Below, in pieces: positions 15,276-52,193 of a stretch of 64,000 bases of DNA. This DNA is from Lyophyllum atratum. Taxonomy: Eukaryota > Basidiomycota > Agaricomycetes > Agaricales > Lyophyllaceae. Numbering within the stretch: the first letter of the stretch is position 1; each line of letters begins with the position of its first letter. The stretch is taken from NCBI GenBank assembly GCA_014905825.1, contig JACGCN010000002.1:2108001-2172000 (forward strand), given 5' to 3'. Made by a program: the position numbers and the translations under genes. Below the pieces are notes generated by a model. The model ran no database searches. It worked only from the letters and a program-made list of their open reading frames with translations, and had not been told where the DNA came from.

Positions 15276-15719
15276 TGGGTTTTATCTTTATCGCTTGTTT
15301 CTGTAGTTAAGCTTTTGTATCATTGATCGCGGTTTAAATGTTTATTCACGCTAGTCCAATGCAGCCAAACTGGTGCCCTGGTTACACGGCGCGTGCTCCG
15401 GCACACCCAAAACAATCACACACAGAACGCCGCGCGTTTTTGTGATTGGTTCGATGATGCGGTGATCCATCTTGGGTCACGCGTGGGGTGGTTTCACGAA
15501 GGAGAGACTTATCCTGCCTAGAAGAGGAGGAAAGAATATGAGACGTCCCCAGGGATCTTCTCATTGACTTTCCTTCGCTAGGTGGGATTTATTTTCTCTC
15601 TTCCCTCCTCAGGGATCTTCGTATTGACGACTTCGCATAGCTCGTTGAACCAGGCACCGTTCATTTTCGTGTCTAATCAACCAATACATCGCTTTCACTC
15701 ATCAAAGTCATCCTGAGTT
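15276..15719. other. Intergenic/5' edge of Ngaro-1, boundary unresolved
   Basis: No gene is visible. A 19-nt imperfect direct repeat occurs at 15550 and 15610 (CAGGGATCTTC, two bases, then ATTGAC), spaced exactly 60 bp. Its position just before the first Ngaro-1 frame suggests it may belong to that element's 5' terminal repeat, but I found no matching copy at the 3' end, so the element's left border stays open. Confidence 0.4.
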
Positions 15720-37517: not shown

Positions 37518-37718
37518 TGAGAGCCTGGCCCGGAGGGGACAAGGCTACACTAAACTGATCACACACCTGAATAGGACCTTGATATATTTCGTATACGAGG
37601 GACCAGATATGAGAGTAGGTGGTGGTGGTAGTTAGAGGTAAGAAGGTAAGTGGTCGACGTGTGGCCAGGTATGGCCACACAAACGTAAACAGACGGAATA
37701 GGTAATCGTAGGATTACA
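37518..37718 (-). repeat. Gypsy-2 5' LTR
   Basis: 201 bp; one difference to the other copy. It is followed on the plus strand by CCTCG and the resumed Ngaro-1 RT frame. Confidence 0.92.
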
Positions 37719-37723
37719 CCTCG

Positions 37724-38589
37724 GGATACCACACACGGAAAGGAAGCAGGTTGCTGGGGCACCTATTGTGATTATAGGTATCGAAGTCGACCCAAACTTA
37801 ATGACGCTTACGTTGCCGGCGGACAGCAAACTCGAGCTAATCGCCAAGATTACTCGCTTCTGTGCCACGGCGGGCGCCTCAGGTAGTTCTAGGTTCTCCC
37901 TCCGCGAGTGGCAGGGTCTAGGCGGCCACCTGAACTGGGCATTCAACGTCTTCCCGCTCCTTCGACCGTGCACATGCGAATTGTACTCGAAGATTGCCGG
38001 GAAGGACTCACCGAACGCGCGCATTTGGGTTAACTCCGATGTCCGTAAGGAGTTGCTTTGGGCCAAGGCCCATCTGCTCGACGCATCTGGGGTTAGGTTG
38101 GTACGGTCTGTGGAATGGACCTACCCTGATGCCGATGCGGTTCTTTACTGTGATGCATCCCTGGAGGGTTATGGCTTCTATCACCCGGCGAGTCACTCTG
38201 GTTTCTTCGGTCCGATTCCATCATGGGCCCCGAGAAACTTGATCTTTTATTACGAGGCGCTCTGTGTCCTATTTGCTCTTCTCCATATCGCCGACCTATC
38301 CCTCCCGATCCCAGCTAAGATCATCATATTTACCGACAACTCGAACACCGTCAACATATTCTCATCGCTGCATGCGCTCCCGATTTACAACAGCATACTC
38401 AGATCGGCATGTGACTTTCTTATCCTTACCGACCATCAGCTTCGTGTTCAACATGTCCCTGGAGTCGAGAACGGCGTCGCTGACGCCCTTTCTCGAAATC
38501 TTTTCCACGTCGCAATGCGCTTGGACCCCCTCCTGGTTATCCAGGATTTTCAACCCCCCGAGAGGTTACTGGGGGCGGTAGAAAAATGA
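37724..38589 (+). CDS. Ngaro-1 RT C-terminus and RNase H
   Basis: The frame resumes with GIPHTERKQVAGAP and IIGIEVDPNL, the end of the RT palm/thumb region. It then has RLSLREW-like spacing (SREWQGLGGHLNW) and an RNase H domain. The RNase H acidic residues are visible in VLYCDASLEGYG, the YYEALCVLFAL helix, IIFTDNSNTV and NGVADALSR. The stop codon overlaps the start of the recombinase gene as ATGA (38586-38589), a coupling seen in YR retroelements. Confidence 0.88.
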
Positions 38590-39599
38590 TCCCTTTCCCG
38601 GTACGATCCAGGCAGCCCGTCCGGCCTGTCTGGTCTCGCGAGCGCCTCATCAGGACTCGCGCTATCGCTCTCGGACAGGCTATCGATTCCACTACAGAAA
38701 ATTCTTATAACTCGGCTCTTAACTCTTACCTCGAATTCGTTCGCTCTCACGACTTCCCTGTCGAACCGACCGCGGATACCCTCAGCTTCTACGCCTGCTA
38801 TATGTCCGAATTCATTAGACCCAGCTCCGTCAATTCATACCTCTCAGGTATAGTCAGCCTTCTTGAACCCTACTTCCCCGAAGTTCGTGAAATCCGCAAC
38901 GCCTCCATCGTCCACCGTTCTCTCAAAGGCTGCAAACGCATTCGGGGTGTACCCGTCAACCGTAAACGGGTGTTGACGGTCGAGGACCTCGACGCTGTCG
39001 CGGTGGGATACGCGGAGTCTAACGACCACGACGATTTGTTATTCAAGGCACAGCTCTTCACAGGTTTCTTCTCGTTATTACGGTTGGGGGAACTTACCTA
39101 TCCCGACAACCCCGTTCTTCGCAACCCTCGTAAGGTGGTTCGGCGCAACACTCTGACCGTCAGCGCCGATGAATTCAAATTCTTCCTTCCCTCCCACAAA
39201 GCCGACGCCGTTTTCGAGGGGAATACTATTATTGTCACTCGCAAGAACGGCCTCCACGATCCTCACAACGCGTTCTTGGCTTATTTAGCCAGTCGTGACC
39301 GTCGCTTCCCATTCAGCTCCCCACTCTGGCTTCGAGCCAACGGGCGTGTCCCCGTGCGTAAATACTTTATTGACCGGCTCCGCCGCTTCTTTGGCACCGA
39401 CGTGGCGGGCGCGTCTATGCGAGCTGGTGGTGCAACCGCTCTTGCTGCAGACGGCGTCGCGCCGTCTATTATTCAAGGCATTGGCCATTGGTCGTCGGAC
39501 GCCTACCAGGTCTATATCAGAAGGCACCCCGTCATGCTACAAGCTCTCCTTTACGGTCGCCGAGGGGCCAACGTCCCGCTCTATGTCCACCACGTCTAG
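38586..39599 (+). CDS. Ngaro-1 tyrosine recombinase, 337 aa
   Basis: This is a phage-integrase-type tyrosine recombinase. It has an N-terminal SAM-like region (TTENSYNSALNSYLEFVRSH) and a catalytic domain. The first Arg is in SLLRLGELTYP. The C-terminal boxes appear as ASMRAGGATALAADGV (Arg II, with Met in place of the usual first His of HxxR), GIGHWSSDAYQVYIRRHP (His/Trp and the nucleophilic Tyr). The order RT-RNase H-YR and the ATGA overlap with the upstream frame place it in Ngaro-1. In the copy-out model such an enzyme inserts circular cDNA. The frame is intact. Confidence 0.92.
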   Translation: MIPFPVRSRQPVRPVWSRERLIRTRAIALGQAIDSTTENSYNSALNSYLEFVRSHDFPVEPTADTLSFYACYMSEFIRPSSVNSYLSGIVSLLEPYFPEVREIRNASIVHRSLKGCKRIRGVPVNRKRVLTVEDLDAVAVGYAESNDHDDLLFKAQLFTGFFSLLRLGELTYPDNPVLRNPRKVVRRNTLTVSADEFKFFLPSHKADAVFEGNTIIVTRKNGLHDPHNAFLAYLASRDRRFPFSSPLWLRANGRVPVRKYFIDRLRRFFGTDVAGASMRAGGATALAADGVAPSIIQGIGHWSSDAYQVYIRRHPVMLQALLYGRRGANVPLYVHHV

Positions 39600-39998
39600 C
39601 TTCATATTATCCCATGCCCATATTCCTTATTTTGACCACCACCGCTCAATTTCCTACCCACCCTCCTGGTCAACTCTATCACTTTTTCTGACTGCTATCG
39701 CCTAATTTCCTACCCATCAACTGCCGTGTTCTCCTCCAGCTACGTATTTCTCCTATAATTTTTTCGAATCTTTACTTTATTTCTTTCTTAACATACAACA
39801 TACACGATTATTCTTCGAACAATCCTATTCCCGCTTATTTCCTTCTCGCTCCTCACATCGTTACCTCATCTCATCTTTAGGTCTTTAGCGCTACCTCTCA
39901 TACGAAAATAATACAGGATCGGTTTTCGGCCTTCCCGGCTGGCTTTTTAGCCGCCGGATCTGGGCTGGCCCGATTTTGCTAAAAGCCCGATACTCTAA
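39600..39998 (+). other. Ngaro-1 3' noncoding region
   Basis: Contains two imperfect copies of AATTTCCTACCCA (about 39650 and 39706) and, near 39910-39990, a segment of inverted GC-rich runs (GGCTTTTTAGCC, GGGCTGGCCCG, GGGCTTTTAGC on the minus strand). These may be part of the element's terminal repeats. The final 8 bases TACTCTAA are the target duplication of the next transposon. Confidence 0.45.
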
Positions 39999-40026
39999 GG
40001 CTCATGTCTTATGTCTGTCGATGATT
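39999..40026 (+). repeat. Left TIR of the exonuclease transposon
   Basis: GGCTCATGTCTTATGTC and onward; partner of 52035-52062 in inverted orientation. Preceded by TACTCTAA. Confidence 0.78.
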
Positions 40027-40465
40027 CAAGTTTTCAAGTTGACTTTTGCGGGTAACATGATGTGTTATGTCTGCCTACATTAGCAAGGCTATGTGGTGTA
40101 ATGGGATTGAGCGTCGAGTTATGTCCGTGGCTTCTAGAAGCTGCGCGTTCGACTCTCGATAATGATTTTATTTTCTTGCGTGAAGTGAAGCCTTTAGTTG
40201 TGTCTGTTTACTTCATCCATCGATCATGAACGCCCATCGCGATCTTGAGCCCGACACAGAGTACACCGTCTTTTCACTATTCAATTCTTCCTGGAAGGCC
40301 ACGCGTGCCATGTCTATTTCACATGGTTATCTCCGTACTACTGAACTATATGAACCTCGATCAGGAATTGGAACATGAACATTCCGAGTTACAGAGGCCG
40401 TTTAACTAGGTAGGCCCATAACTATCGAGTTCTATCATTCACGTTGGCTACAGATCTACAAAGTA
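40027..40465. other. Transposon subterminal region, noncoding
   Basis: Between TIR and the stop codon of the transposase gene. It holds further TTATGTC copies in the first 100 bp. A stretch near 40084-40160 looks weakly tRNA-like but does not fold as one. Nothing else is seen. Confidence 0.5.
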
Positions 40466-43400
40466 TTAAGCCTTAACTCGTTTGCGCGGCCGTGCCGGAC
40501 CGTCGTGATCTAAGCAAGCACAGAATTTCGAACCCCCAGAACCCTTGCAACTGTCGACGCGCGCACAGTCATGATCGCGACACGCTGCACAGCGTTTCAC
40601 ACGCCTTTTTCCAGGAGCAGCCGGTGGATTTGGGTTGCGTGAACTCAGTGTGACGGAGCTGGGTCCAGGATCATTGCTGGGGGCCGCTGGGAGGAATGTC
40701 GAGGCTGGGTCTATGCGGGTGGTTACTGGGGGAGCCGGGATCGTTACTGGCGTCTCAGATCGTGTGCTGACACTTTCTGTCCCAACCTGTGTATGCTGTG
40801 CTGGCTGGATTTCGGTGGGTGGGCTTGTGTGGTGAGTCGTCGATGCATTGATTCTGGATCGGGCTGTTGCTAACCACACCGTCAATATCAATCAAACCAG
40901 TGGACAATGCGATGCTCACAGGCGATATTCCTGTCATCCCGCATCTTCCCTTTCCTGTCTTGCAATGTTGGTGTAGAATCGGGCCCGGGGAGGGTGAGCG
41001 CTGGTAATACCCGGGATCGTCGGTTTGGATCGTTCAGTACGTCAGTGATTGCTTTTCTTGCTTGAATGCTATTTGACATTGTGGCCTTCTCAGCACGATA
41101 AGCTGCCCAGACCTTGTGATGCCGTTCCAGCTGCTGGGGAATCTTGTAGTAGAGATTGTCGTTCGGACGTTCGTGTACTACTTGATTCCAGCGAATTGCA
41201 AATTTTTCGAAATTGATTGCCTTGGCTGTCTGACTCGCAACTGGTGCACGCGAAGACTGGATGGCAAATTCATAGGTACCGAGAAGCTCATTGAAGAGCC
41301 TATACTCCGTGGATGTGTGTATTGGCACCACTGCATGAGCAGTCTGCTGGCGTTGCCGGAGATATTCGTACACGCTCACGGGGGCAGTCGACAGATGTGT
41401 GAGGAGATGAACGGGTACATCCCGATAGTATGGAGTGCCCTCCTGGACTGTGTTCTCAATGCGATGCATGCCGTAACTTGAGGTCATGGATTTCGGAACC
41501 TTGATGATCCCCGAAGATTCCTTGGTCGCGATACGAGTGCCGAGGATAGCGGGTAAAGGGAATGATGGCTTGATATCCAACTGGGTTGCTAGCTCTACAA
41601 TCTCATCTGTCCGCCAAGTGTCGAAATGGTTCCGATATCGCTTGCCTGTGCGGTTGAACCATCCAACCTGTACAACCAAAGAAAATAAGCTGCAATCTTT
41701 ATCGAGGCATATATGTGGGTCATTTACCGTGGCATTTCGTCGATGACGTATATTTGCGAGCAAGGAATCAGCGAGTTCTGGAGATGCCCGAAGTGATCCA
41801 AAGGTACGACGAAGGGGCATATGGATGCCTCCCTCTATGGAGTTGGTTCCCCGCAGACAACGATAGACGGTAAGACCATCAGGATCAGTTCCTATTGCTC
41901 GATATAGGGGAAAGCCTGGGGGATCGGAAAGCAGGCCTTGTTCTGCTACACGGATTATTGCGGCTGACTGTTTCGTCGCTGCCTCCGAGAAAAGGACCCC
42001 ACGTTGGGGATCTACAGAGCACTTTACACCTGACCACCCATCAAAGAGTTTCTTCAAATCTGGAACTAGTCTCTCCGGTGGTGGGCAATATCGTCGCACA
42101 CGTCGTCGGATGGCATCAGATTCTGAGCGAAGTGCGTAAGACCAGGTAAGTCCCCGTTTTTGATAGACTGAAGAGACAGCTGCAACATCTGAGTCATCCG
42201 GAACGAGAAGAACCTGGCTAAATGCAGCTGCAAAGGCTTTAAAACCTGAGTGTCCTTTTGAAAGTAATCGAAGAAGGCGATCTTGAACATGCCACAAATC
42301 ATCAAAGAGCCGACTTGAGAGAGGGCCAGAAGCTGATTGTGGTTGATGAAGAGTATTGGCACATGCGGAATCGGTGGGATTCATATGGACCGGTGATTTC
42401 CGCCGAGGTTCAGCTGAAGAGGAGTTTTCGAGGGATGTTAAATCCACATTTCGGATGAGATCGTCAATGCTATCGTCAAAATCATACTCATCATCAGCGC
42501 CTGCTTCTGGTGATGGAACCTGAATGATTTCAGTTAGCTTAGTAAATTTGTAATAGGTTATCGACTTACAACAGAGGTGGTTTGAAGTTCAAAGTTTAGT
42601 AGTCCAGGCAGGTTCTCCTCATCACAGTCAGAACTATCTGACTCTGAGTCTGAATCATCATCTGAGTCAGACTCCCGGGCAAGAGAGCCAAAAATTGGCA
42701 GATGTTCTTCGCTATACTGTGATGGTTCTTCGAACACGAAACGGATAGTGGGATTGATAGGTTCAGTGGATGTGGGTGGTACGATGGCGCGAGTGCGGAG
42801 TGTTGATCGTGTAACGACGAGATGGAATGGTTTTAACTCTTTCGACAAGGTCTCCAAAGTTTCATGATATAGTGAAGCTATGAATCCAGGTACAACCACC
42901 GTCTCAATCAGAATTAAAGCACGCGAAGCTGTTACATTGATTTTTTGAGCTGGTTTCGACCCAAGTGGTGGAATAGAGATGGTAGGAGGTGAGGACACGA
43001 GAGATCCAAGTGCGACAAGCTTTTTCCCTGAATAGAGACTAACCAGCTGCCCAGGAACATTTTTGTCTAGATGCAGGCCAACAGAGGGAAGAGAAGATAG
43101 TTTTTTCCAGATAGACCAGCTTGCATATGCATCGAGCGCTGCGTAATCTCTCTGAGAATCCGTGAGCTGAGGAAGAGACCATCTGGAACAGCGGATAGAG
43201 TCCAGTTTACTAATGCGTTTCTGTAAAATGATTGCAGAAAGAGCAGCAAGTCCGCTAGATGCATCTGAAACTTTTCCCTTTAGTTTAGCCAGGGAACCTA
43301 GGTCAATTAAGCTGTTATCAGACTCCTGGAGAGAGGCGTGAAGCTCCGGGATAGACCAGGCTTCCGCCACCCTTTTCAGATCAGTGCGGACTGCTCGACC

Positions 43401-45543
43401 TGTCTTGATGATCTGATCTGAGATGAGGATCGAGCGAAGACAGGGAGGGACTGATGCGGGCGACTTGAATTGAGTAACCTAAAATCCTAATTAGTTGAAG
43501 TACTTGATAGGTAATGAGAAAAAGATACTTTGAATACATAGACTGCACCCTCCATCGCAATCTGAATAACATCCAATTGGCCGGTTCGAGCTCTAGGGTT
43601 TGCTCCAGGACCACCCTGACCAGTCGTCTCGACTTCATACTCAATATCAAACCCGATGACTAGACGTGAGCCATCATCGAGAATGCTGTCGAGAATATTA
43701 CCACATGCGCTATCAATGAGGTCTGGGCTATCGTAGAGCACCACTCGGATTTCTGGAGGAATACTGAGAGGTGGAAGCTTTTGATAGGGATCGAGCTCTT
43801 TATGAACCACATTCTTTGTCATTGAGCGGGTTGTCGATTCGTGAAACGCGAGCTCTCCTGATGCTTCGATAAGCGCGTTTTCACAATGACACCAGGGAAT
43901 ATCTTACCAGATGCATTGTCAGTGTACATAAATGATGTTGGAGGACAGCCATGTGCCTCAAGCCCGTCTGCAATGTCTTCATACATTTCACTAACATACG
44001 AGAGACTTTTCGTCAACGTGAAGGCTTGGGCACGAGCGTCTTCCCACTCATTTACAACTGTATACATGGCGTCATGTGTGGGCTCTCCAGAAAGCCGTGC
44101 CATGTATTTTATCACCTGAGAACAGGTGAGCTCAGCATTGATGAGATTTGGAAGCTAGTGCTTACTTTGAACGTATGGTCTCCCTTGAGAATCCCTCCTG
44201 GAAGAGAAGCCATAACTCTATCATAAAAGACACGGTGGGCTCGCATCCAGTCAACAAAGATAGAGTTACACCATTGATACGATGGATGAGTTCCTGCATA
44301 TCGGGATTTGTCTTCAAAAGTAGAAAATGGGATCGGAGCAGTTGGACTTGGTGATGAGACACACGTCGCAAGATATGTCAATTCACGGTGTGCATGATGC
44401 AGGTGGCGCATTTCACCAAGAAGTGATGCAAAGGGCTTAGGACCAAACCGACCAGCAAATAAAGTACGCATGACAGCCATGAGGTTTTTGTCAATGGCAC
44501 CACGGGCTGTGAGATATGCTTGTGAAAGAAATGCGTTCATGTGTCGATAACGTATCAGAGGATGCTACCATACCTGGAAATGCTTCCTGAACATGTCGTG
44601 GAAGTTGCGCAAGGATGTCAGGATCTGTCCCCTGATATGATGCTCCGCAGCCAGGATCAGCTGTGTTCTTGTTGCAAACGAACCGTGCCGTCAGCAGGAA
44701 ATAATCGTTGTGCATGTCCCGAATTCGCCGACAACTGGATTACTGTTCCATCCTAATTCATGATTAGTGGAGTCAGATCTCCCACAAGATTTAAAGTACA
44801 TACCGTCGCGAACAAGATTATGACGGTTGCATCGTGTGCATCGGAAACAGTCTGGGCGGTCCGGAAGGCAGTATGGCAGCCATACAAAAACTGGAAGGTG
44901 GTAAAGCCCGGCAGGTGAACAGCCCCCAAGATTGTTCTTCGTCGAGTGAAGTGCAAAAAGCGGATCTTTGGGATTGATCCAAAATGTACCTCTCTTGTAG
45001 CAGCTGGGCTGGCCAGAGGCTTTTATTTCAGCCTTCAGATTCTTCACAATCCCTCGGAGGTACTCATCATGAACTCCCTGTAAATTCTCTTCCTCCTTGG
45101 CCTCCCGTTCAGCTTGATTCATTGCATCAAGCAGGTCGTCATTTCCTTCCTCAAACAGGCTCTCTTCGACATCAGCATCTCCTCGGCCCTCATCATTTTC
45201 CAGTCCCTGAATGTCATCCCATTCTGATTGTAGTTGTGCATACGCCTCAGCGGTGAGAACGTTCGGATCTATAAGGAAGTTGCTTCGACTGTCAACACCG
45301 TCATCTGATCTGTTACACACCTGCATCCTGTCCAGGCCTGGGATTCCCTTCGGTAGCAATAATGGAATCAGCTTCCGCGGTGATGGAATCTGTTTGTGTA
45401 CGCGCTGCAAAGAACGCGCTTGGAGGGCCAGGCATTCCGGAAACTATGTTGCTCGCAAATAGGCGTTGAGTCATTTTAGATGCATTGGATTTTCTGCCTG
45501 CACCTGGCCGAGCACCGCCATGATATGAAGACGAAGACGACAT
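40466..45543 (-). CDS. DDE-transposase-like protein with embedded DEDDy 3'-5' exonuclease and zinc regions
   Basis: Start at 45543 (MSSSSSYHGGARPGAGRKSN). Next comes an acidic region. A Cys-rich module follows (RGTFWINPKDPLF, VFVWLPYCLP, CFRCTRCNRHN, then MHNDYFLLTARFVC) that resembles the domain I recall as DUF6729. A transposase-like core begins: first Asp in GILKGDHTFKV, second in FMYTDNAS. Then a complete exonuclease domain intervenes: LVIGFDIEYEV (DxE), GRAVRTDLKRV (second Asp), DYAALDAYASW (YxxxD), the RNase D/WRN signature. The core resumes with RGTNSIEGGIHMPL, supplying the presumed third acidic residue. The C-terminus has a Cys/His cluster (CAACRDHDCARVDSC) and a basic tail. Introns near 44155, 43900, 43520, 42560 and 41725 splice in frame. 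Around 44740 one base seems to be missing, and the first and last intron borders are uncertain. Function is inferred. Confidence 0.75.
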
Positions 45544-45597
45544 CGAGTGTGAGAGTGAGCTAGCGTCGCGACGACGAGTGGAACGCGTTCACTCTGT

Positions 45598-45777
45598 CAT
45601 CTTTGTAATAGCTAATTTGAAATCAAATCATGGAATCTTATTCCAGGTTTTGGGAGAAAGCGTCTGGTCTTTTAGACCCTTAAAAGGCACTTATTGATGT
45701 AATCGATTGCCGACGCTTTGAGCGCGAGCTGTAGGAATTAGAATGACCGTCTCTGAATAATAAGTCAAACTATCCCA
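45598..45777 (-). repeat. Ngaro-2 split direct repeat B2 (left arm)
   Basis: 180 bp, identical by eye to B1 at 46002-46181. On the plus strand it reads CATCTTTGTAATAG...ACTATCCCA. Confidence 0.85.
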
Positions 45778-46001
45778 AGGGTAGCTCACACTAGAAATAG
45801 GGATGGTGGGTGGGTCGAAAAATAAACTTTCTAGCTGCAGACCACTTTGTGGGATGAGAGAGAAAAACTCAAGCCACATACACGTGTCGAATCCATATCT
45901 TAGTCTTCACACGTGGCTTGGTTTTTCTAGTTCAAACCGCGCTTTCAAAGACCTTGTTCTATTCAGGGAACTCGCGGGCTCGTTTCACTGAATAGAACGA
46001 C
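45778..46001 (-). repeat. Ngaro-2 split direct repeat A2 (left arm)
   Basis: 224 bp between the two B copies. Its counterpart A stands at the far right end of the element (about 50621-50777), in the same orientation, as expected of A1. Confidence 0.8.
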
Positions 46002-46181
46002 CATCTTTGTAATAGCTAATTTGAAATCAAATCATGGAATCTTATTCCAGGTTTTGGGAGAAAGCGTCTGGTCTTTTAGACCCTTAAAAGGCACTTATTG
46101 ATGTAATCGATTGCCGACGCTTTGAGCGCGAGCTGTAGGAATTAGAATGACCGTCTCTGAATAATAAGTCAAACTATCCCA
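46002..46181 (-). repeat. Ngaro-2 split direct repeat B1 (left arm)
   Basis: 180 bp copy of B2, located after the recombinase 3' region. Confidence 0.85.
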
Positions 46182-46392
46182 TAACAGAGCACAGCTCACC
46201 ACAGTTGGACTGATTATACAGCGCCAACTCACCCAAACCGGAGTGCATGCTCGCAAGTTTTATCTATAATCGAAAGCTATAGTCCGTAAAATACACATAT
46301 ACAAAGTTCAATAGTCCGAATAATGTTCGAGTAAAGTAAATGTTCTATAGTCCAATAAGCAATACAAGTCCAAAAGTCCGAAATCAAGAAAA

Positions 46393-47766
46393 TTAATGTC
46401 CATGAGTCGAAGGTCCATAACGACGTTGAAAAGCGTGCATACTCTTCCTGGCCAGGTTCGCTCTGTCCTCGGCAAACGCGTTTGTCATGAACAAAGAAAG
46501 GATACCATCGATTCTTCGCCAATACTCCAAGAAAGCATCCGACTTCCAACGTCCTTGAGTCCGTACAATCATCGGATCAACACCCCGCAAAAGTAACTCG
46601 GTAGCTCCTCCAATGCGGAATGCATGACCAGTCAAACGAGGCATACCTGCATCTTCCCAAATCCCCTCGCATCGGTTTAAAAACCAGTCTCGTGTCATTG
46701 GAGCCCATCCCCCATCAGCTGTTGAAAACGCGAAGAAAGGAGCGGAACCGGGTACGCCTGAGTTGACATTTAAATGATGAAGAAGAGCAGCATGCGGGTC
46801 CGAGGGTTCGTCAATCTTGGTCACGACAATGGAAGCCCCTTCGAACCCGGTCGTTTTTGTCCAAGGAATATCGAAGGTAGTCGAAGTAGCAGAGGAAGAC
46901 GAACGACTGGACCTGCGTGTCGCTCGGGAAACATGTTTAGCTGGATTGAAAGTACCAGCACTAGGCACCAGAAGTTCACCAAGACGACAACAAGACCAGT
47001 AGGCTATACAAGCCAAGGCCCATACGGCAGCGTCGAAAGCGTCAGAAAGGTTGAGACCAGCACGCAAAGCATGCATGTGCTCGATAGTAACTGGTGGACG
47101 TTTAGCGCGTTTAGCATCCACGGGTACCAACTTCGACACCCCTCGCTTAACCGCTTTCAGCATCTCTGATCCCTCACCGTTCCAAACCGCCCCATTCACC
47201 AAGTGCCAAAAACGAATACCAGCTAACCAATTATCGAGAGTAGTTCGCGCGACCTTTCCTGCCGCCATTGCGGTCGAAAATCCACATAACAAGATGTCAG
47301 ATGCCGGCATCCGTTGCGATTCCGGAATCGACCGAGAATCACAATACTGGGTGAAACGAAGAAGGCCAGCCCCATAATTTGAACGAGTTTCTTCATCCAA
47401 TGAGAAAAGCATAACCTAAGGATCCCGTCAGAGGGAACATCAATGATAAATCACATTCAGAAATACCTCTAACAAAGCTCGGGCGTCACAAGACGGAAGC
47501 GCCTGCACCAGGCATTCGCGAAAAGGTAAAGTCACCGGAGTGCTCCAAGCACGGAGACGCTCAGAAGCAAGAACATGAGGACGTAAAGGGGAAGATTCAA
47601 TAACATTTTCTGGCCGAGGTTTCCTCGGCCGGCGAATTCGACCAATTGGAGGGTGCGGTGCAAAATCAGCACTAGAACTCGTCGCCATACGAGCGTAGAA
47701 CTGTTCTGCCTCCAAGGCCACGTCGACACCTGTCAACGCATGTCGTAATGCAGGTGTATCAGGCAT
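46393..47766 (-). CDS. Ngaro-2 tyrosine recombinase, left-arm copy, 444 aa
   Basis: Two exons are proposed: 47766-47455 and 47415-46393, separated by a 39-nt intron (GTGATTTATC...CCTTAG). Splicing joins LLEVFLN to VMLFSLDEETRSNY in frame. The start ATG overlaps the stop of the RNase H frame as ATGCCTGA. The catalytic domain shows the first Arg in SCCRLGELLVP, the HxxR box in LTGHAFRIGGATELL, and GRWKSDAFLEYWRRID with the nucleophilic Tyr. It differs strongly from the Ngaro-1 recombinase, so this is a separate family. Without splicing, the downstream 339 codons are open alone and hold the whole catalytic domain. Confidence 0.88.
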
Positions 47767-48211
47767 CCGAAAAGTATCGGGATAACTCTGTAGGCAGAGT
47801 GAAGGAATCGACCATCCGATGTTCATGAAGACCCAGATTACCGCGAGAAATGGGATCAGCAAGATTGTCGGCAGAAGCAACATATTCAAACGTCAGAGAA
47901 ATGCTTCGTTCCAAAGCAATGACCTCGGCACGACGGATGGAGAGATTCACCTCGAAATTCCTCCCTCGACCACGCTGCCAAGCACCAATAACACCTTGAT
48001 TGTCACTGCGAATCAAGACGTTCACGTCACAGAGACCGCGTTTATCCAAAACGCGAATCGCGAACTCCACTGCAACTCCTTCCAACCAACCAATGTCTCG
48101 AGCCGGTCCCCGCCAGTTCTCAACCAACTTCCAAGCGTCCCATGACTCCCCGTTTCCCCAAATAAGCCCAATGCCCCAATCCGTAGAAGCATCAACCCAA
48201 GTCATGAACAT
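47759..48211 (-). pseudogene. Ngaro-2 RNase H fragment spanning the palindrome loop
   Basis: The frame starts inside the palindrome junction and reads MTWVDASTDWGIGLIWG, then WLEGVAVEFAIRVL, VLIRSDNQGVIGAW and SADNLADPISRGN, a DIRS/Ngaro-type RNase H. The upstream RT has been lost; immediately before 48202 the sequence turns into the inverted arm. The domain itself looks nearly complete but lacks its RT partner, so I treat it as a remnant. It ends at FSDA, overlapping the recombinase start. Confidence 0.8.
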
Positions 48212-50432
48212 CGGATGGTCGATTCCTTCACTCTGCCTACAGAGTTATCCCGATACTTTTCGGATGCCTGATACACCTGCATTACGACATGCGTTGACAG
48301 GTGTCGACGTGGCCTTGGAGGCAGAACAGTTCTACGCTCGTATGGCGACGAGTTCTAGTGCTGATTTTGCACCGCACCCTCCAATTGGTCGAATTCGCCG
48401 GCCGAGGAAACCTCGGCCAGAAAATGTTATTGAATCTTCCCCTTTACGTCCTCATGTTCTTGCTTCTGAGCGTCTCCGTGCTTGGAGCACTCCGGTGACT
48501 TTACCTTTTCGCGAATGCCTGGTGCAGGCGCTTCCGTCTTGTGACGCCCGAGCTTTGTTAGAGGTATTTCTGAATGTGATTTATCATTGATGTTCCCTCT
48601 GACGGGATCCTTAGGTTATGCTTTTCTCATTGGATGAAGAAACTCGTTCAAATTATGGGGCTGGCCTTCTTCGTTTCACCCAGTATTGTGATTCTCGGTC
48701 GATTCCGGAATCGCAACGGATGCCGGCATCTGACATCTTGTTATGTGGATTTTCGACCGCAATGGCGGCAGGAAAGGTCGCGCGAACTACTCTCGATAAT
48801 TGGTTAGCTGGTATTCGTTTTTGGCACTTGGTGAATGGGGCGGTTTGGAACGGTGAGGGATCAGAGATGCTGAAAGCGGTTAAGCGAGGGGTGTCGAAGT
48901 TGGTACCCGTGGATGCTAAACGCGCTAAACGTCCACCAGTTACTATCGAGCACATGCATGCTTTGCGTGCTGGTCTCAACCTTTCTGACGCTTTCGACGC
49001 TGCCGTATGGGCCTTGGCTTGTATAGCCTACTGGTCTTGTTGTCGTCTTGGTGAACTTCTGGTGCCTAGTGCTGGTACTTTCAATCCAGCTAAACATGTT
49101 TCCCGAGCGACACGCAGGTCCAGTCGTTCGTCTTCCTCTGCTACTTCGACTACCTTCGATATTCCTTGGACAAAAACGACCGGGTTCGAAGGGGCTTCCA
49201 TTGTCGTGACCAAGATTGACGAACCCTCGGACCCGCATGCTGCTCTTCTTCATCATTTAAATGTCAACTCAGGCGTACCCGGTTCCGCTCCTTTCTTCGC
49301 GTTTTCAACAGCTGATGGGGGATGGGCTCCAATGACACGAGACTGGTTTTTAAACCGATGCGAGGGGATTTGGGAAGATGCAGGTATGCCTCGTTTGACT
49401 GGTCATGCATTCCGCATTGGAGGAGCTACCGAGTTACTTTTGCGGGGTGTTGATCCGATGATTGTACGGACTCAAGGACGTTGGAAGTCGGATGCTTTCT
49501 TGGAGTATTGGCGAAGAATCGATGGTATCCTTTCTTTGTTCATGACAAACGCGTTTGCCGAGGACAGAGCGAACCTGGCCAGGAAGAGTATGCACGCTTT
49601 TCAACGTCGTTATGGACCTTCGACTCATGGACATTAATTTTCTTGATTTCGGACTTTTGGACTTGTATTGCTTATTGGACTATAGAACATTTACTTTACT
49701 CGAACATTATTCGGACTATTGAACTTTGTATATGTGTATTTTACGGACTATAGCTTTCGATTATAGATAAAACTTGCGAGCATGCACTCCGGTTTGGGTG
49801 AGTTGGCGCTGTATAATCAGTCCAACTGTGGTGAGCTGTGCTCTGTTATGGGATAGTTTGACTTATTATTCAGAGACGGTCATTCTAATTCCTACAGCTC
49901 GCGCTCAAAGCGTCGGCAATCGATTACATCAATAAGTGCCTTTTAAGGGTCTAAAAGACCAGACGCTTTCTCCCAAAACCTGGAATAAGATTCCATGATT
50001 TGATTTCAAATTAGCTATTACAAAGATGGTCGTTCTATTCAGTGAAACGAGCCCGCGAGTTCCCTGAATAGAACAAGGTCTTTGAAAGCGCGGTTTGAAC
50101 TAGAAAAACCAAGCCACGTGTGAAGACTAAGATATGGATTCGACACGTGTATGTGGCTTGAGTTTTTCTCTCTCATCCCACAAAGTGGTCTGCAGCTAGA
50201 AAGTTTATTTTTCGACCCACCCACCATCCCTATTTCTAGTGTGAGCTACCCTTGGGATAGTTTGACTTATTATTCAGAGACGGTCATTCTAATTCCTACA
50301 GCTCGCGCTCAAAGCGTCGGCAATCGATTACATCAATAAGTGCCTTTTAAGGGTCTAAAAGACCAGACGCTTTCTCCCAAAACCTGGAATAAGATTCCAT
50401 GATTTGATTTCAAATTAGCTATTACAAAGATG
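48202..50432 (+). repeat. Right arm of the 2.2-kb inverted repeat
   Basis: Inverted partner of 45598-47828. Contains recombinase copy two and B1-A2-B2 at 49849-50028, 50029-50252 and 50253-50432. Confidence 0.92.
48264..49637 (+). CDS. Ngaro-2 tyrosine recombinase, right-arm copy, 444 aa
   Basis: This is the mirror copy of 46393-47766, with exons 48264-48575 and 48615-49637 and the same catalytic residues. The translated products of the two copies are identical over the regions compared. Its start codon lies only 62 bp inside the palindrome arm and there is no RNase H frame in front of it, so its transcription would depend on what remains in the 373-bp loop. Confidence 0.88.
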
Positions 50433-50620
50433 GTCGTTCTATTCAGTGAAACGAGCCCGCGAGTTCCCTGAATAGAACAAGGTCTTTGAAAGCGCGGTTT
50501 GAACTAGAAAAACCAAGCCACGTGTGAAGACTAAGATATGGATTCGACACGTGTATGTGGCTTGAGTTTTTCTCTCTCATCCCACAAAGTGGTCTGCAGC
50601 TAGAAAGTTTATTTTTCGAC
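50433..50620 (+). repeat. Partial A repeat, right arm side
   Basis: Third copy of the A repeat, in tandem after B2 of the right arm. It ends at TTTATTTTTCGAC, short of the last ~36 bases of a full A. Confidence 0.8.
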
Positions 50621-50778
50621 TTTGTGGGATGAGAGAGAAAAACTCAAGCCACATACACGTGTCGAATCCATATCTTAGTCTTCACACGTGGCTTGGTTTT
50701 TCTAGTTCAAACCGCGCTTTCAAAGACCTTGTTCTATTCAGGGAACTCGCGGGCTCGTTTCACTGAATAGAACGACCA
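50621..50778 (-). repeat. Inverted A (A1) repeat at the outer right end
   Basis: 158 bp that fold back perfectly onto 50431-50588, with a 32-nt spacer. In the orientation of the left half of the element this is the 5' A1 repeat. Confidence 0.82.
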
Positions 50779-52034
50779 GCCTGTGTCACCTCGACCACGT
50801 GATTGGCCGCTGGTGAGGTACTCAATACTGCGAATTTGATACTTGAAGATAATAAGACAAAAAAATTGGATACACCGTGAATGACAAGAGATTACTATAT
50901 TCTATCTAACTAGGAAACGGTGAAGGGAACTCAAGCACCTCAGGTGGGCAGGAAACGGCAGGAAACGGGGCCGGCGGCTAGGCTGGGCTGGTGTTGGCGC
51001 TCCAGCCGGCGTCGCGGGGATTGTGAGACGGTTGGGTTGAGGCTGGCGGCGTCGTTCATCGCTGAGGCTAGCTGGAAACCCTTGCTGAGCTGGGCTGGGC
51101 TGGGCTGGTGCTATCGTTCACACAGGCTAGCAGACGGCCGAGATCAGCTGCTGTTGCTGGCACAGACGGAGGCGCCGGCGGGTGGATGCACTGGCTGGGG
51201 TAGGGTACGCGTCCGCTGCGGATACGGCCATCGGCGACAGCCGACAGCGTAGGGATGGATTGGGGATGGCACCGCCGCATGTTGATCGGCTTGGGATTGA
51301 GGTTGAAATTCGCTCGCGGATGGGTGACACCATATGCGCAGCATCGTGACGAGAGGCTGGTGATGGGGAGCCGCGGCGATTGCGAAGTGTTTGCCTTGAG
51401 AGGAGACAGGCGTGGTGAGCGATCATTGCGAGGATGATATGGCAACGCACCTGCAGGGCTCTCCCCAGCTGGAGTCTGCCCCATTGTATCCCCTCCCTAC
51501 CATCATCCTTGTCGTGTGCAACAGATCGTCGTTCCCTTCGACAAGCCTGACCTATCAATCAATCGTCATCCGTGTCTATCCATAAGGAAGGAAAAGTCTG
51601 CAACATACAAGGAAGGTTGATTAGCAAGATATTAATACCATTGAAGTTGCATGCACTTACTTTGCAGCTCCAAGGCTTACATGGCGGCCTAGGTGATTCC
51701 GAAGAAAGGCGCTTCGCGCGAATGATGAGAATCTGCGAGAAATAAGCCTGTCACGAATGTCTGACTATAGGTATAGCGAAGAACAGTACTCACAGATTTC
51801 CGCGCCGAGGTCTTCACGCCTGCCCTGTGCTGGTCCTGCAATTGATCGATCCCGTCGTGGCCACGATTTGGTCGCGATTCAAACTGGCCGAGCGGGACTT
51901 GTGTTGAAGTTGACTACGTGGGAGTTGTGTACGAAATTAGAACCGGTTGCATGGAGCCCGAGAACCCGTGCAAGGGATGGGAATGTATTACCGGATTGGA
52001 CTGTGGCTGTACGGTTATGTGTTATGTGGGACAT
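50779..52034. other. Transposon 5' region, no recognisable gene
   Basis: About 1.25 kb between Ngaro-2 and the right TIR. It includes G-rich short tandem repeats (GCTGGGCTGG at about 50988 and 51083; GGCAGGAAACGGCAGGAAACG at about 50948). Frames of up to ~140 codons on both strands have no domain and skewed composition, so none is called. The region should hold the promoter of the transposase gene, now separated from it by Ngaro-2. Confidence 0.5.
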
Positions 52035-52062
52035 AACCATCGACTGACATAAGTTATGAGCC
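52035..52062 (-). repeat. Right TIR of the exonuclease transposon
   Basis: Inverted partner of 39999-40026; followed by TACTCTAA. Confidence 0.78.
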
Positions 52063-52193
52063 TACTCTAAGGACTCAGGACCTGCATTGGATGACGTCAA
52101 CGCGTTTCAATTGTAGTGTCAGTTATCAACATTGATAAATAACGATTATGGCAGGCTTACACTTTAACCTCATCTTGAACCATACGACTCGCG

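Follow-up and report, generated by a model that had tools for sequence, protein, structure and literature searches.

Cut-and-paste is the textbook route of eukaryotic DDE transposons. In the bacterial IS256 family, by contrast with that route, elements use copy-out: ISCth4 makes 8-bp target-site duplications (TSDs), forms junctions with spacers of 6-8 bp and integrates best from a 6-bp junction, and IS256 itself has junction spacers of 5, 6, 7 and 19 (PMC7780238). IS30 forms tandem dimers by a like reaction between two copies, probably also on partly replicated DNA (PMC9333248), and the authors who described the eukaryotic KolobokP likened its excision footprints to IS3/IS256 copy-out and raised a circular intermediate (PMC9587614). 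Here we analyze a 64,000-nucleotide stretch of Lyophyllum atratum DNA (the window), whose minus strand carries a gene that we interpret as the transposase of a fungal DDE DNA transposon. The DDE reading rests on terminal inverted repeats (TIRs) with an 8-bp TSD, near-invariant D, D and E residues with a DxxH motif, and a predicted fold matching ISCth4; the same evidence supports the presence of a DEDDy exonuclease inside the catalytic core. To the explanation as a whole, in which this transposon multiplies by copy-out/paste-in, we assign a probability of roughly 0.68.

The transposon exceeds the gene interval of the preliminary description, spanning 39999-52062 and being split by an insertion at 45598-50778. 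Its ends, derived by comparing copies on contig C1, read GGCTCATGTC... from 39999 and GGCTCATAAC... from 52062 on the minus strand, with TACTCTAA outside each; the gene is flanked, as in DDE transposons, by inverted repeats and a target duplication. A complete relative at C1:2077691-2084049 measures 6,359 bp.

39999-52062, minus strand: whole transposon, 12,064 bp with the nested insertion and 6,883 bp without it
39999-40023, plus strand: 3' TIR, GGCTCATGTCTTATGTCTGTCGATG, from pattern comparison of copies
52038-52062, minus strand: 5' TIR, GGCTCATAACTTATGTCAGTCGATG, from pattern comparison of copies
39991-39998, no strand: TSD TACTCTAA, adjoining the element's 3' end (identical 8 nt outside both TIRs)
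52063-52070, no strand: TSD TACTCTAA, adjoining the element's 5' end (identical 8 nt outside both TIRs)
45598-50778, no strand: nested palindromic insertion, retroelement-like and foreign to the transposon, 5,181 bp, in the element's 5' part

The same duplication length recurs wherever both ends could be read: all seven such loci carry an 8-bp TSD, and the seven sequences are all different. This length is also that of hAT elements; Kolobok elements, unlike the fungal one, duplicate TTAA, which these seven different duplications are not. Two subfamilies with different ends (GGCTCATG versus GGTTT/GGCTT) behave alike. At four further places the ends are broken, single or not found; the 3' end on C141 is broken and C108 shows one end, neither giving a TSD. 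For two members of the subgroup with the motif RGTNMTEGG (C75, and C1 at 1.91 Mb), a search of 10.2 kb around each found no TIR or TSD; it required a pair of 16-mers agreeing at 11 positions or more, next to identical 8-mers lying 3.5 kb or further from each other.

Within the element, all the motifs named in the preliminary description lie in a single minus-strand gene, in the order claimed, and are joined by nine short introns of 50-60 nt that all begin with GT and end with AG. The model, built by hand and compared with paralogues by tblastn, encodes 1534 amino acids (aa). Its parts are as follows.

40466-45543, minus strand: transposase gene, 10 exons and 9 introns, rebuilt by hand from the sequence
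45543-45321, 45268-44804, 44752-44574, 44518-44166 and 44115-43908, minus strand: exons 1-5
43857-43529, 43478-42570, 42519-41728, 41667-40920 and 40863-40466, minus strand: exons 6-10
44166-44903, minus strand: DUF6729 (PF20499) region, exons 2-4, limits approximate (Pfam on P0023, evidently a model of this gene, E=1.7e-16)
44730-44731, minus strand: one-base loss relative to the C1 copy, breaking the frame in exon 3
44178-44180, minus strand: first catalytic Asp, D403 (GDHTFK), conserved in alignments
43918-43920, minus strand: second catalytic Asp, D473 (MYTDN), conserved in alignments
43062-43774, minus strand: WRN-type DEDDy 3'-5' exonuclease insert, about aa 505-725 (D547, E549, D619, Y698, D702)
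42732-43034, minus strand: small beta-rich domain after the exonuclease, about aa 735-835, limits approximate (transferred by eye from strands 345-429 of the model of the relative P0032)
42289-42300, minus strand: DxxH motif (D963, H966), start of the alpha-helical insertion domain, from alignment
41833-41835, minus strand: third catalytic residue, E1118 (RGTNSIEGG), conserved in alignments
40469-40591, minus strand: C-terminal Cys-rich cluster (from CAACRDHDC), read from the sequence

The three acidic residues expected of a DDE transposase are conserved across relatives. In a 48-row alignment, all 45 rows that cover the first residue have Asp there, as do all 46 that cover the second, and 42 of 43 have Glu at the third; a further alignment has the D of DxxH in 65 of its 66 rows, and the H likewise in 65. 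DxxH is placed by alignment in an insertion domain whose alpha-helical fold is predicted. Between the second and third acidic residues, where the preliminary description had put a DEDDy exonuclease, the insert has a predicted WRN-type exonuclease fold, and P0023 matches DNA_pol_A_exo1 in Pfam (E=2.1e-6). The model of P0032 matched exonucleases only, among the matches listed; to assess the DDE part we therefore folded P0075, a relative without the exonuclease, and in this predicted structure an RNase H fold unites the catalytic residues, with the ISCth4 DDE transposase as best match and Hermes and the P element next. In P0075 (Apophysomyces ossiformis EC973_007053) both the exonuclease and the beta-rich domain are missing between the second Asp and DxxH, and the protein may be either a natural exonuclease-free form or a gene model that skips a stretch.

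Sequence profiles gave the transposase no name. Pfam models for Transposase_mut (IS256) and MULE matched none of 29 members at E<=0.1 nor, at E<=10, any of three proteins with the exonuclease removed; hAT models likewise matched none of the 29 at E<=0.1, and no KDZ-type family appeared in the Pfam scan of the same members, no direct comparison with KDZ being made. With the exonuclease kept or removed, no DDE family was found by Pfam, and the transposase cannot be named by sequence alone.

The preliminary description had suggested that the embedded exonuclease could trim transposon or target ends, or block repair. Among 32 relatives on our tree, at least two of the four exonuclease carboxylates are lost in 25 and all four are kept in seven, which weakens such a role as a general rule. 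(P0023 stands for the window gene in this count, from which we dropped the window translation itself, P0013 for an internal gap, P0018 and P0054 as misaligned, rows without the exonuclease, and P0001-P0003, P0008, P0009, P0053 and P0055, where it is partial.) Instead of being an enzyme in the reaction, the insert could serve the insertion domain only as a folded spacer or for DNA binding, a possibility to which we give somewhat less than even odds. The losses favor it, since D, D and E are kept in most covered rows while the exonuclease residues go; P0071 and P0072 have also lost the carboxylates, and the cores of Hermes, Transib and the P element carry helical insertion domains (PMC7780238). 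By contrast, D-x-E, D and Y-x3-D are present in the window and in all copies from its own genome in which the motifs were read, and most rows of a second set of relatives keep the exonuclease residues. Moreover, the ratio of nonsynonymous to synonymous substitution rates (dN/dS) between the window gene and its C1 relative is 0.12 within the exonuclease and 0.10 over the gene (1297 codons), both rough values given a dS of 1.16, near saturation. Because the intact/lost label requires at least three changes on the tree and two rows beyond the midpoint root, though on long branches, have an intact site, exonuclease activity is probably ancestral and repeatedly lost. We read the domain as a useful but dispensable end-processing activity that is structural where dead: it would probably have begun by processing 3' ends released where the donor copy sits, and in many lineages, without catalysis, it probably persists within the insertion domain to hold DNA or give structure.

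The case for copy-out comes from tandem arrays. Patterns for the element ends found 57 sites (28 + 29, with no control matches in either), 52 of them in head-to-tail arrays; by locus, there are six arrays, two of which are alleles, versus non-array copies in the window and on C119, C141 and C108. In gene orientation, the arrays read as follows: T1, two autonomous copies on C1, outer duplication AATTTCTA and joint TTTCTA; C97, ten identical 1,297-bp non-autonomous copies, GGTCATCC and TCATCC at nine joints; T2, two autonomous copies of another subfamily, AGATTTTC and ATTTTC; T3, two autonomous copies of the same subfamily as T2, TGTCAATT and TCAATT; and C95, where twelve copies measure about 815 bp and an allelic array lies on C130, CCTATCTC and TATCTC at 11 joints each. 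At one of the C130 joints, the element end differs by a single base. The joint is 6 nt long in 34 of 34 cases, across all five independent arrays, and in four of the five the two bases adjoining the right end are clearly absent from it. The outer duplications are undamaged and agree with the joints, so the simplest history for each array is one insertion followed by formation of the array at that site. That the arrays are assembly copies is unlikely, since one T1 copy contains a 20.8-kb insertion, and the units on C95 differ slightly from those on C130, which is a separate contig.

We propose that the transposase joins the right end, on the 3' side of the gene, to flanking DNA at a point 6 nt beyond the left end, which would account for the 6-nt joint. 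The same joining on one molecule would give a circle and, between sister chromatids, a head-to-tail dimer, and such dimers could then grow into arrays; strand transfer, circles and array growth are what we infer from ends, duplications and joints read directly in the DNA. The combination of 8-bp TSDs with short, flank-derived spacer joints, at seven of seven loci and in five of five independent arrays, is that of IS256-type copy-out, and the structural and joint evidence, obtained independently, both point to this bacterial family. Two considerations weigh against our explanation: the spacer is usually as long as the duplication (PMC9587614), a misfit with 6-bp joints beside 8-bp TSDs, and expansion from 2 to 10-12 copies needs recombination or repeated events anyway.

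That second consideration is shared by the rival account, in which an ordinary cut-and-paste hAT- or MULE-like DDE transposon was arrayed by host repair or by unequal recombination of TSDs between sister copies. Duplications of 8 bp are usual for hAT (PMC12730594), those of MULEs, at 8-11 bp, also fit (PMC6446971), and Hermes and the P element are the next structural matches. Recombination between 8-bp duplications, however, would leave 8-bp joints, whereas every joint here has 6 bp; the missing bases beside the right end and the rank of ISCth4 as best structural match also count against this account, which we consider unlikely although well short of negligible.

Very improbable is a domesticated host gene, an exonuclease joined to a dead transposase in a locus that is no mobile element. 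The domain order is old and conserved, and some members are annotated as single genes; against this stand inverted repeats with exact 8-bp duplications, the presence of the same ends on non-autonomous copies, insertion at several loci in each genome and a surrounding block absent from an allelic-looking contig, and no result we obtained favors the host-gene reading. Least credible of all is a separate exonuclease gene spliced in silico into a transposase: our gene structure was read from DNA and not from transcripts, but in distant paralogues a single open frame covers the second-Asp region together with the first half of the exonuclease (as in L038), another covers its second half and the catalytic Glu (L035, L036, L038), and the same order occurs in Mucoromycota and several basidiomycete orders.

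The window copy itself is probably inactive, judging from the base lost in exon 3 and the 5.2-kb insertion in its 5' part. Where it misses one base near 44730, the C1 copy reads on in frame as GWNNKPVARRVRDLHND. P0023 (Lyophyllum atratum FPV67DRAFT_1559024, GenBank) is 98% identical and evidently a model of the same gene; its annotation bypasses the lesion by an alternative splice.

Other copies with the same domain order and TIRs, which the preliminary description proposed to look for, exist in this genome, with relatives in other fungi. Two further copies keep the motif order at 75-76% DNA identity to the window, and about a dozen divergent paralogue loci keep the domain order, as far as each covers the domains, at 29-40% identity where aligned. 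Relatives were found in Agaricales and, in Mucoromycota, in Mucor, Parasitella, Circinella, Phascolomyces and Zychaea, as well as in Melanogaster, Ganoderma, Tulasnella (first Asp not covered) and Phenoliferia, spanning several basidiomycete orders; these are the taxa recovered by searches that scored only candidates sharing most words. Because the motif order recurs in copies, divergent paralogues, Mucoromycota and Basidiomycota, it is not due to chance, and on sequence grounds the architecture is old. A distant metagenomic relative, P0096, combines the exonuclease with a PHD finger near its C-terminus and a weak DUF6729 match.

Several neighboring features were observed along the way. The nested insertion has inverted arms of 2,231 nt that are 100% identical (45598-47828 and 48202-50432); it may be a genuine palindrome or a fold-back introduced by the assembly. 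By eye, its open reading frames (ORFs) resemble the RNase H and tyrosine recombinase of a DIRS-like retroelement, and plus-strand ORFs at 37702-39599 resemble the RNase H/tyrosine-recombinase end of another; neither set had a Pfam match at E<=0.01. A 36.8-kb block including the element (15327-52084) is absent from the allelic-looking contig C121 (L093), which runs from window position 15326 directly to 52085, with CATTG(A/G) at both block edges. The 20.8-kb insertion in the first C1 copy (C1:2052060-2072849) has 672-bp identical direct repeats and a 5-6-bp duplication (ACCTT), which suggests a recent long-terminal-repeat retroelement. The allelic 12-copy arrays of a short non-autonomous relative at C95:320775-330621 and C130:917884-927741, whose end stretches are 99.3% and 99.5% identical, may be DNA transposons turning satellite-like. 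Scans for end-to-end joints also yielded candidates that we took as chance or other repeats, namely 5 of 15 matches with 18- or 24-nt gaps in a variable-gap scan (0-25 nt; control 4) and 2 of 25 with 16-nt gaps in a second (control 1). A fixed-gap scan allowing two mismatches gave 51 matches, 24 of them joints of T2, T3, C95 and C130; of the 27 others, two come from T2 and T3 read in reverse and all the remaining ones are two-mismatch matches (control 24).

More broadly, the preliminary description knew of no transposon class with this layout, and our literature searches, which left Repbase outside, agree: no paper that we found places an exonuclease within a DDE core or describes in-place joints of a constant 6 bp for a eukaryotic DDE transposon, and none mentions DUF6729. 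Accessory exonucleases in DNA transposons (KolobokD/E, ISL2EU) and multimers in KolobokP are already known. It seems to us an even bet that the elements constitute a fungal superfamily, unnamed as far as we found, spread across Mucoromycota and Basidiomycota, in which an IS256-type DDE transposase with a WRN-type exonuclease in its core multiplies by copy-out, the right end being joined 6 nt outside the left to yield circles and sister-chromatid dimers. If so, a eukaryotic DDE transposon would use a bacterial copy-out pathway and record its events as tandem arrays, and copy-out would explain a route from DNA transposons to such arrays. The precise 6-bp joint and 8-bp TSD in divergent subfamilies, together with the ISCth4-like predicted fold, make eukaryotic copy-out directly testable. 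The embedded exonuclease, a large enzymatic domain kept in a DDE core while its catalytic residues are repeatedly stripped, would offer a natural experiment on the function of transposase insertion domains.

Compared with known systems, the insert has the fold and catalytic residues of WRN, MUT-7 and RNase D, but is embedded in a transposase and lacks those residues in many relatives. Exonucleases accompany other DNA transposons. KolobokD and KolobokE encode a DEDDh or PD-D/ExK enzyme, but this is reported as an accessory, which in KolobokE lies downstream of the transposase domain, and belongs to another family than the DEDDy domain inside the core here; KolobokP forms tandem multimers, but these share a long terminal direct repeat in place of 6-bp joints (PMC9587614). 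ISL2EU (PHIS) carries its exonuclease as a separate YqaJ ORF of another nuclease family (PMC4482050). MULEs, the eukaryotic relatives of IS256, share an IS256-like core type and a TSD range that includes 8 bp, but the fungal transposase matches no MULE/Mutator Pfam model, and the word 'exonuclease' does not occur in the main text of a MULE survey (PMC6446971). Hermes and other hAT elements share the 8-bp TSD, the RNase H core and a helical insertion between the second and third acidic residues.

The closest resemblance is to the IS256 family, including ISCth4 and IS256, which provides the best structural match to the core and has C/DxxH in an alpha-helical insertion domain. The spacing of the first two Asp residues is similar (D175-D241, or 66, in ISCth4; D403-D473, or 70, in the window), and the family shares the 8-bp TSD, the end-to-end junction with a 6-bp spacer and tandem dimers, the last reportedly the subject of a study in IS256. 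Unlike these bacterial elements, whose donor end can be either one in ISCth4, the fungal arrays seen always use the right end and reach 12 copies, and the element, which has no Pfam sequence match to the family, is eukaryotic, intron-bearing and 6-7 kb long, adding DUF6729 and a WRN-type exonuclease.

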